This document shows, in pieces, positions 43,527-57,099 of a stretch of 64,000 nucleotides of DNA. Under the pieces are notes generated by a model that did no database searches, was not told the origin of the DNA, and was given only the letters and a program-made list of their open reading frames with translations. Positions within the stretch are counted from its first letter, which is position 1; the number at the start of each line of letters is the position of its first letter. The stretch covers positions 1 through 64,000 of the forward strand of contig CABMJJ010000011.1 in the NCBI GenBank assembly GCA_902386555.1, in the 5' to 3' direction. Both the position numbers and the translations under genes were made by a program. Source of the DNA: Candidatus Bilamarchaeum dharawalense (lineage in GTDB: Archaea > Micrarchaeota > Micrarchaeia > Anstonellales > Bilamarchaeaceae).

Positions 43527-43656
43527 TTTAATCCTCTAAAGAGATATGGTTAATAAAAAGAAGAATTTAAATTGCTGCCTTTAGCTGGTTTTGGGCAGTG
43601 GCACATATATTTAAATGCAAAAGCTGAGAGAATTTTAAGGTAATGGATGATTTCCA

Positions 43657-54983: not shown

Positions 54984-55020
54984 TGAATAAAAATGAAGAA
55001 ATTTTTATATGGTGATGATC

Positions 55021-55812
55021 ATGGGAGATGAAGTTAAAGACGTTATTATGGCCCAGATAAGAAGAGACGTACTAAATAATACACTAAGCAAAGGAGTTAG
55101 ATTTGACGGTAGAAAATTTGATGAATACCGGCCAATCGAAGTCCAGCGAGGACCGATAAAAACAGCAGAAGGTTCGGCAGTTGCAAAGATTGGCCAGACC
55201 ATGGTGCTTGTTGCAGCCAAATTCGATATTGTAAAACCATTTCCAGACCGACCAACTCAGGGTGTGATGGTTTCAAATGCAGAACTTTTGCCAACAGCTT
55301 CACCAACATTCGAATCTGGTCCTCCAGACGAATATTCAATTGAAGTGGCAAGAGTAGTTGACCGAGCTTTAAGAAGTGCCGAATGTGTTGACCTTAATTC
55401 ATTCTTTGTTGAAACCGATAAGGTTCTTGGGTTATACCTGGATATTTATGTGTTGAACCATGCAGGGAATTATACTGACACTGCCACATTGGCAGCAACA
55501 GCCGCATTGCTTGACACCAAAATACCAAAAGTAGAGAATGGAGCGATAATTAGAGGAGAATATGCAAAACCACTCAATCCAACCAAGCTTCCACTTACAA
55601 CTACCATGGTAAAGGTAGGTAACAATTGGCTTGTGGATCCTTCCAGAGATGAGGAAAGGGTTTTGGAAACCACACTCACCATTGGAACAACAGAGGAACA
55701 TGTCTGTGCGATGCAAAAAGGAAAGGGTGCGATAACCAAAGATGAACTCGTCGAGGCTATGGAGATAGCTTTTAAAAGAGGAGACGACATAAGAAAAATC
55801 CTTAAGGGGTAG
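55021..55812 (+). CDS. rrp42: Exosome subunit Rrp42
   Basis: Non-catalytic RNase PH-like partner of Rrp41. Recognised by 'VRFDGRKFDEYRPIEVQRGP', 'AEGSAVAKIGQTMVLVAAKF' and 'LDIYVLNHAGNYTDTATLAA'. Three in-frame Met codons lie at 55009, 55015 and 55021. The last is favoured because GGTGAT precedes it at proper spacing. 263 aa. Followed four bases later by L37Ae. Confidence 0.95.
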   Translation: MGDEVKDVIMAQIRRDVLNNTLSKGVRFDGRKFDEYRPIEVQRGPIKTAEGSAVAKIGQTMVLVAAKFDIVKPFPDRPTQGVMVSNAELLPTASPTFESGPPDEYSIEVARVVDRALRSAECVDLNSFFVETDKVLGLYLDIYVLNHAGNYTDTATLAATAALLDTKIPKVENGAIIRGEYAKPLNPTKLPLTTTMVKVGNNWLVDPSRDEERVLETTLTIGTTEEHVCAMQKGKGAITKDELVEAMEIAFKRGDDIRKILKG

Positions 55813-55816
55813 AAAT

Positions 55817-56053
55817 ATGTATACTGCAAAATATGGTGCTTCAATTAGAAAACTCGTGGATAAGGCAATTCTAGCAAAACGCACGAAGTACGAATGTCCA
55901 AAATGCCATAAGCTAAAGGTAGCCAGAAAAGGAAATGCTCTTTGGGCATGTAAATCCTGCGAGGCTGTCTTTGCCGGTGGCGCCTATTCATTCAAAAGCG
56001 AAGCTGGCGAAATAGCTGCAAGAATTATCAACGAATATTCAAAATCTTCTTGA
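55817..56053 (+). CDS. rpl37ae: Ribosomal protein L37Ae (eL43)
   Basis: Large-subunit zinc-ribbon protein, 78 aa. 'KYGASIRKLVDKAILAKRTK' is followed by CPKC and CKSC, so its zinc site is intact. It sits in the classic archaeal order Rrp42-L37Ae-RpoP-Brix-Pcc1-prefoldin beta. Confidence 0.96.
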   Translation: MYTAKYGASIRKLVDKAILAKRTKYECPKCHKLKVARKGNALWACKSCEAVFAGGAYSFKSEAGEIAARIINEYSKSS

Positions 56054-56066
56054 TTGGAGGGATTTC

Positions 56067-56198
56067 ATGGGAGAATATAAAGATCAAAAAAGTGGGGCAA
56101 ACATCTCAACAGGAGAAAAGTTTGCATTTCCAACTACAGGAGCAAAAATTCTACTCAAAGCACGCCCACCAATAGCAAAGGAAGTCAAGTCTGACTAA
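56067..56198 (+). CDS. rpoP: RNA polymerase subunit P (Rpb12-like) lacking its zinc cysteines
   Basis: 43 aa with a strong SD (GGAGG, seven bases before ATG), at exactly the rpoP position of archaeal gene order. The C-terminal half 'GAKILLKARPPIAKEVKSD' is the Rpb12/RpoP tail that docks in the polymerase. The N-terminal half aligns with the YKCxxCG...CPxCG zinc ribbon, but D6, S9, F21 and T24 stand where the four Cys belong. No Cys remains. The frame is intact, so it is probably expressed with a metal-free fold. Identity rests on the tail motif and gene order. Confidence 0.8.
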   Translation: MGEYKDQKSGANISTGEKFAFPTTGAKILLKARPPIAKEVKSD

Positions 56199-56236: not shown

Positions 56237-56476
56237 ATGTACACTACCAGCAGATACGCGTCAACAGAAACAAGAGAACTAGCAAAGAAAATGGCCAAGG
56301 AAAAAGAAGAACCATACACAGCACGCGGAAAAAAAACAATAGATCAGCTGGTAGATTTTGCTAGAAGAAAAGGCGAAGAGAATATAACAGTGGTTGAAGA
56401 ACACGAGAAAAAACCAACAACCTTCGCGCTGATACAAATCGATGAACTCGGCCGATGGAAATGGAAACGGGGATAG
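56237..56476 (+). CDS. Short Brix-domain protein (Imp4-like N-terminal half)
   Basis: Ribosome-biogenesis family. 'MYTTSRYASTETRELAKKMA' and 'YTARGKKTIDQLVDFARRKG' match the start of the archaeal Brix/Imp4-like proteins, including the TTSR and RGKK motifs, and it lies at the family's usual place. It ends at 79 aa, about half the normal length, with the following gene overlapping its end. No continuation is seen in other frames. Start chosen by AAGGAT five bases upstream of the ATG. Confidence 0.72.
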   Translation: MYTTSRYASTETRELAKKMAKEKEEPYTARGKKTIDQLVDFARRKGEENITVVEEHEKKPTTFALIQIDELGRWKWKRG

Positions 56477-56706
56477 GCATAAAAGCAACGTGCTCGATGA
56501 AAATCGAGTTTCCTGATGAGAAATCTGCAGAAGCAGCAGAAAAGGCGATATCCCATGAAGGCGATGTTGGAAATCGATCCACAACAAGAATAACTAAAAA
56601 AGGAAAGGTATTAACACTAGACATAGATGCTCATGATGTGGTTGCTCTCAGGGCAACTGCAAATGCATGTCTCCGGGCATTGCAAGTTTTTGAGTCTTTA
56701 AAATAG
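56455..56706 (+). CDS. pcc1: KEOPS complex subunit Pcc1
   Basis: Dimerisation subunit of KEOPS, which makes N6-threonylcarbamoyladenosine at tRNA position 37. The family pattern is 'CSMKIEFPDEKSAEAAEKAI' followed by two strands and the final helix 'ALRATANACLRALQVFESL'. 83 aa from 56455; Met at 56461 is an alternative. It overlaps the end of the Brix gene by 22 bases and precedes prefoldin beta, as in other archaea. Confidence 0.88.
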   Translation: MEMETGIGIKATCSMKIEFPDEKSAEAAEKAISHEGDVGNRSTTRITKKGKVLTLDIDAHDVVALRATANACLRALQVFESLK

Positions 56707-56733: not shown

Positions 56734-57099
56734 ATGAAAAAAGAAGCCGAAGATTTGAACCGAGAACTGGTTGAATACGAAAATATGGAAAAACAATTGG
56801 AAGTTCTATTGATTCAAAAACACCAACTCCAAATGCAAATGAACGAGATTAAACATGCATTGGACGAATTGAAAAAAGCCAAGGGAGAGGTTTACCGCTC
56901 GGTTGGTTCAATCTTAATGCACACAACAAAAGAACAGGCTGAAACTGATCTTAAGGAAAGAGATGAACTTGTTGAAGTGAAATTGAATGCAATATCGAAA
57001 CAAGAGGAAAAACTTAGAAGCGTTGTTTTAGATACTCAAAAGAAACTTCAGGAGAAAATGAAAGGTTATGGAAAGAGCGGTGGCGGAGAAGGAGATTAG
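56734..57099 (+). CDS. pfdB: Prefoldin subunit beta
   Basis: Jellyfish-shaped chaperone subunit that hands unfolded proteins to the thermosome. Two long coiled-coil helices flank a beta hairpin ('AKGEVYRSVGSILMHTTKEQ'). 121 aa with a Gly-rich end. SD AGGTG precedes the ATG. Its last 32 bases overlap the DHH gene. Confidence 0.94.
   Translation: MKKEAEDLNRELVEYENMEKQLEVLLIQKHQLQMQMNEIKHALDELKKAKGEVYRSVGSILMHTTKEQAETDLKERDELVEVKLNAISKQEEKLRSVVLDTQKKLQEKMKGYGKSGGGEGD

Follow-up and report, generated by a model that had tools for sequence, protein, structure and literature searches.

A clade-wide, cysteine-less form of the RNA polymerase subunit Rpo12 (RpoP) in a Micrarchaeota-type DPANN lineage

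The gene at positions 56067-56198 (forward strand) of the window, the 64,000-nucleotide stretch of Candidatus Bilamarchaeum dharawalense DNA analysed here, is very probably the only, functional rpoP (Rpo12/Rpb12) of a DPANN lineage of the Micrarchaeota type. Comparison with its orthologues suggests that all four zinc-ribbon cysteines would have been lost in a single ancestral event, and that the subunit would still dock through its tail and carry the former ribbon as a metal-free module.

The ORF begins with ATG at 56067 and ends with TAA at 56196-56198 (43 codons), and its product, MGEYKDQKSGANISTGEKFAFPTTGAKILLKARPPIAKEVKSD, contains 0 Cys and 0 His. A Shine-Dalgarno sequence, GGAGGG, was read directly at 56056-56061 on the forward strand, separated from the start codon by a 5-base spacer, and similar purine-rich motifs were found upstream of many rpoP orthologues. 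Only 13 bases lie between the L37Ae stop and the rpoP start. The initial annotation had described a 43-aa protein between L37Ae and Brix with a strong Shine-Dalgarno sequence, a retained RpoP tail and D6, S9, F21 and T24 in place of the four cysteines. Each of these points was borne out, with the qualification that the Brix-like ORF is short and its NCBIfam match weak. The four replacements occupied the same columns as the cysteines in an alignment with canonical RpoP. On the basis of the alignments and the pN/pS values given below, the protein was divided into a former zinc-ribbon half (aa 1-24, 56067-56138) and a conserved C-terminal tail, GAKILLKARPPIAKEVKSD (aa 25-43, 56139-56195); it was through this tail that the protein matched 4qiw_P, a chain P of Pyrococcus/Thermococcus type in the PDB (E 0.04).

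Far from aligning poorly with the RpoP profile, six Cys-less sequences matched ten four-Cys RpoP sequences from end to end in hhalign (97.7%, E 2e-12, 41 columns). When the window protein was searched as a single sequence, Pfam returned no match and the NCBIfam RpoP model matched weakly (E 0.0016; 18 of 89 bits for NF001607). The basic tail motif GxKILxKxRPPxAKEV was present, and 0/4 Cys of the CX2C...CX2C zinc ribbon were found in the window protein, as in each of the clade's 49 sequences. By alignment and gene order, we conclude that the ORF is the Rpo12 (RpoP/Rpb12) orthologue; because it has 0/4 ribbon Cys, it is filed by orthology as a Cys-less variant and not as a canonical zinc-ribbon member.

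The Cys-less gene follows L37Ae in the exosome/prefoldin operon, the position that the four-Cys rpoP occupies in other families of the order. Around genes of both types the order is exosome Rrp4-Rrp41-Rrp42, L37Ae and rpoP, followed, though not in all genomes, by Brix, Pcc1, prefoldin beta and DHH. In the window, all on the forward strand, these neighbours include an exosome subunit at 55009-55812, which we take to be Rrp42 from its sequence and its operon position, L37Ae at 55817-56053 (PF01780, E 7.5e-22), Pcc1 of KEOPS at 56455-56706 (PF09341, E 2.9e-12) and prefoldin beta at 56734-57099 (PF01920, E 6.5e-17). The Brix-like ORF 3' of rpoP (56237-56476, forward strand) matched the NCBIfam rRNA maturation model PRK00933 with E 1.5e-7, far under the cut-off. 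At ~79 aa it is only half as long as the known Brix-domain proteins of archaea; it overlaps Pcc1 and could represent a single-domain version that has been shortened.

The distribution of the variant was followed in draft genomes of the window's family (f1), a second family of the same order (f8) and their relatives. Cys-less rpoP was found in 42/43 genomes of the window's family, rpoP not being detected in the remaining one (G036, 85% complete), and in 7/10 f8 genomes. Two of the seven f8 copies, from genomes of 0.5-0.6 Mb (G080 and G055, f8/g28), were very divergent, and rpoP was not detected in three other genomes of that genus (G052, G081 and G082). The tails of the two divergent proteins (L079 and L179) are without the RPP motif (VKKDPDGPVEVSTD); together with the undetected gene in the three genus mates, they may mark a further stage on the way to losing Rpo12. 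Among the other families of the order, an rpoP copy with four or more Cys was present in 30/31 genomes and no copy was detected in 1/31, and in the wider class (f12, f14 to f28) all 32/32 genomes read, the lowest-scoring ones included, had four or more. These counts confirm that Cys-less rpoP is a real, clade-wide variant that extends beyond one assembly.

To place the loss, a tree was built from Rrp41, Rrp42, L37Ae, prefoldin and DHH proteins of 63 loci by a quick method with SH-aLRT values and no bootstrap. All 34 Cys-less rows (28 f1 and 6 f8) formed one clade in this neighbour-protein tree (SH-aLRT 100), and therefore one ancestral Cys loss explains the pattern; the nesting of f8 within f1, with modest support, leaves this unaffected. 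A single loss in the common ancestor of the two families is thus the simplest account.

Both halves of the Cys-less protein are under purifying selection, and the tail is held tighter than the former ribbon. In the Cys-less clade, pN/pS was 0.35/0.80 for the ribbon half and 0.20/0.80 for the tail, and in four-Cys genomes the two halves were alike (0.26/0.87 and 0.28/0.82, respectively); because synonymous sites were saturated, these ratios are upper bounds. In a close pair, pN was 0.03 and pS was 0.35. The faster evolution of the ribbon half in the Cys-less clade could also mean that this half is a decaying remnant, drifting toward loss while the tail alone does the work. In accord with this, the N-terminus is strongly altered in one genome (G001), and the G080 and G055 copies are very degenerate, with none detected in three genus mates. 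Furthermore, a 17-residue C-terminal peptide of Pyrococcus subunit P restores most function, and the basic polymerase functions tested in vitro proceed without the ribbon (PMC2680338), and the RNA polymerase of African swine fever virus is entirely without RPB12 (PMC10881513). Decay, however, predicts frameshifts or truncations, and none were seen among the 49 sequences. The N-terminal half keeps a length of ~24 residues in nearly all of them, with Y4, T/S9, G10 and F21 conserved, and its ratio of about 0.43, itself an upper bound, indicates clear purifying selection. We consider a decaying remnant unlikely, though it is the alternative that survives best, and favour a retained, functional metal-free module.

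A second, canonical rpoP, which the initial annotation had set against its own reading, was not found in these searches: PF03604 gave no match at E<=10 in the window's own genome (88% complete), and a four-Cys RpoP profile run over the 43 draft genomes of the family returned no significant full-length match that had four Cys. In every genome with a detected Cys-less gene, that gene was the profile's best match. It is thus very improbable that a genuine zinc RpoP is encoded at another locus or hidden in assembly gaps, with the Cys-less gene as its paralogue. The incompleteness of the window's genome and the absence of any match in G036 leave some room for such a copy, but no four-Cys copy appeared in 42 family genomes, 15 of them >90% complete, and the ancestral rpoP slot is already occupied.

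The Rpo10 motif CxxC...CC was kept in every Cys-less genome examined, as were two Rpo1 zinc sites and one Rpo2 zinc site (the B' part of Rpo2 was not recovered in G021), and the control protein L37Ae had its four Cys in 34/34 genomes with Cys-less RpoP that were checked. Because these sites are kept, the change does not reflect a wholesale loss of zinc proteins. In the window itself, the zinc sites of L37Ae (CPKC...CKSC) and of a Csl4-like ORF (CAFC and CGIC) are intact, as had been noted initially. The Csl4-like ORF starts near 43535 on the minus strand, apart from the exosome operon, and has a long Gly/Arg-rich C-terminal extension. The window also contains a zinc-finger-like ORF of ~258 codons that starts near 909 on the minus strand and has, close to its start, three CxxC pairs (CSRC, CSAC, CWRC, CPYC, CDRC and CKTC). 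A genus mate (G010) carries two distinct Rpo10 genes, L153 and L158, each with all four Cys.

The residues at the former cysteine positions were themselves restricted. The Cys3 position was Phe in 42/42 sequences of the window's family, suggesting a metal-free hydrophobic core; 38 of these were counted automatically, and four, which the pattern had misplaced or which contain a one-residue gap, were read by eye. In f8 this position was Leu or Ile in five sequences and ambiguous in the two most divergent ones. The Cys4 position was Thr or Ser with one Asn, and the Cys2 position was Thr/Ser. Binding of a metal through other ligands might be imagined, since the Cys1 position is often D6/E6, but no conserved Cys or His was found at any position of the 49 Cys-less sequences, and Thr/Ser, Phe and Thr/Ser stand at the other three sites; this explanation has very little chance of being correct. 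The metal-free Rpb12-like subunit that the initial annotation proposed for this lineage is supported by these data as far as sequence can speak to it, and would extend across the whole clade, beyond what was then claimed.

An artefact of sequencing, binning or reading frame, or a chance ORF, which the use of metagenome-assembled genomes and the blindness of Pfam to the single sequence might suggest, is practically negligible as an explanation and is refuted by family-wide orthologues and pN/pS: the same four losses recur, with intact frames and pN well under pS, in 49 sequences that come from independent assemblies of two families, and the absence of the same four Cys from orthologues in 41 other family genomes upholds the initial exclusion of sequencing error.

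Rpo2 was compared between the Cys-less clade and its four-Cys relatives. Among 554 columns, 22 were conserved among the relatives with four Cys and altered in all members of the Cys-less clade, and five of the 22 fell in one 12-column stretch at Rpo2 residues 60-71 (EADGS to EVKGG; permutation p 0.0015). Further clade-specific changes were located at 371-378 (VQTLVRPDAL to VHTLIRQDVM) and 757-768. By fold, we take these three segments to belong to the protrusion and wall, regions said to flank subunit P. Because the 60-71 loop also varies among solved archaeal Rpo2 sequences, co-adaptation of Rpo2 and Rpo12 is a lead only. A polymerase with a natively metal-free Rpo12, a Phe-centred hairpin core and an Rpo2 docking surface co-adapted near 60-71, 371-378 and 757-768 is therefore put forward tentatively, as a proposal that these alignments leave somewhat short of even chances. 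Rpo2 is split into ORFs of ~489 and ~623 aa in the window genome (G000:C7:212805-225513; L159, L165, L167-L169) and in most relatives, and is fused in f8 and in G030.

Pyrococcus RNA polymerase without P does not form stable open complexes, and P carrying Cys27/30Ser is loosely bound and performs worse than the bare tail (PMC2680338). The latter result indicates that an uncompensated loss of Cys is harmful. We propose that the common ancestor of the two families lost all four ribbon Cys once and that its descendants kept the gene. The Cys-less subunit would most likely dock between Rpo3 and the wall/protrusion of Rpo2 via its basic tail, as has been shown in other archaea, and the docked subunit would support promoter opening, the tail having the essential job. 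The former ribbon may have become a short metal-free module, in which Phe at Cys3 and Thr/Ser at Cys2 and Cys4 probably pack the hairpin once held by zinc, so that the N-terminal hairpin could still aid docking. AlphaFold2 modelling of the isolated window protein with a six-sequence alignment gave a pLDDT of 61 without a clear fold; in the control, an isolated canonical four-Cys subunit without an alignment, pLDDT was 83 and the tail was helical. Models of isolated chains of 43 residues are thus of little value for judging the fold.

The four zinc-ribbon Cys of Rpb12/P have been described as conserved from archaea to eukaryotes (PMC2680338), and the need for the metal has so far been argued from laboratory mutants. 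The clade described here amounts to a natural experiment, in which the metal site was apparently removed once and the tail and gene were kept under selection in two families. That the ribbon Cys were lost and the essential tail kept suggests that an RNA polymerase can be built without the zinc of Rpo12. Reconstitution can now test which part of Rpo12 the enzyme needs, what substitutes for zinc and whether Rpo2 has altered its partner surface. The variant is also a warning for annotators that Rpo12 of this kind escapes the standard family models: because Pfam misses the gene and NCBIfam scores it far under its cut-offs, genomes of this clade would be scored as being without Rpo12. In the open-licence literature, we found no paper on RpoP and Micrarchaeota together, and titles and abstracts likewise yielded none on subunit P in DPANN.

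The window protein resembles archaeal Rpo12 (subunit P) and eukaryotic Rpb12 (ABC10alpha) in size, tail motif, operon position and whole-length profile, and presumably in its place in the enzyme, but its clade is without all four ribbon Cys. Laboratory mutants of the Rpb12/P zinc ribbon and the C-terminal Pyrococcus P peptide likewise have the tail and not the ribbon Cys (PMC2680338). Those, however, were made by engineering, as single or double changes or as truncations, and are partly defective, whereas the form found here is natural and stably inherited; all four Cys have given way to other residues, and selection persists. A parallel loss of Cys zinc knuckles from core information-processing proteins is seen in the bacterial zinc-independent (C-) paralogues of ribosomal proteins (AltRPs, L31p and others), which are reported to be made under zinc limitation beside the zinc form (PMC5912738, PMC9825181). 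In the window clade, in contrast, the Cys-less form is the sole copy, with no four-Cys copy in the 43 family genomes, and the other polymerase zinc sites are kept. The viral RNA polymerases that have no RPB12 (African swine fever virus and vaccinia) also dispense with the Rpb12 zinc ribbon (PMC10881513), but there the entire subunit is missing, whereas in the window clade it persists.
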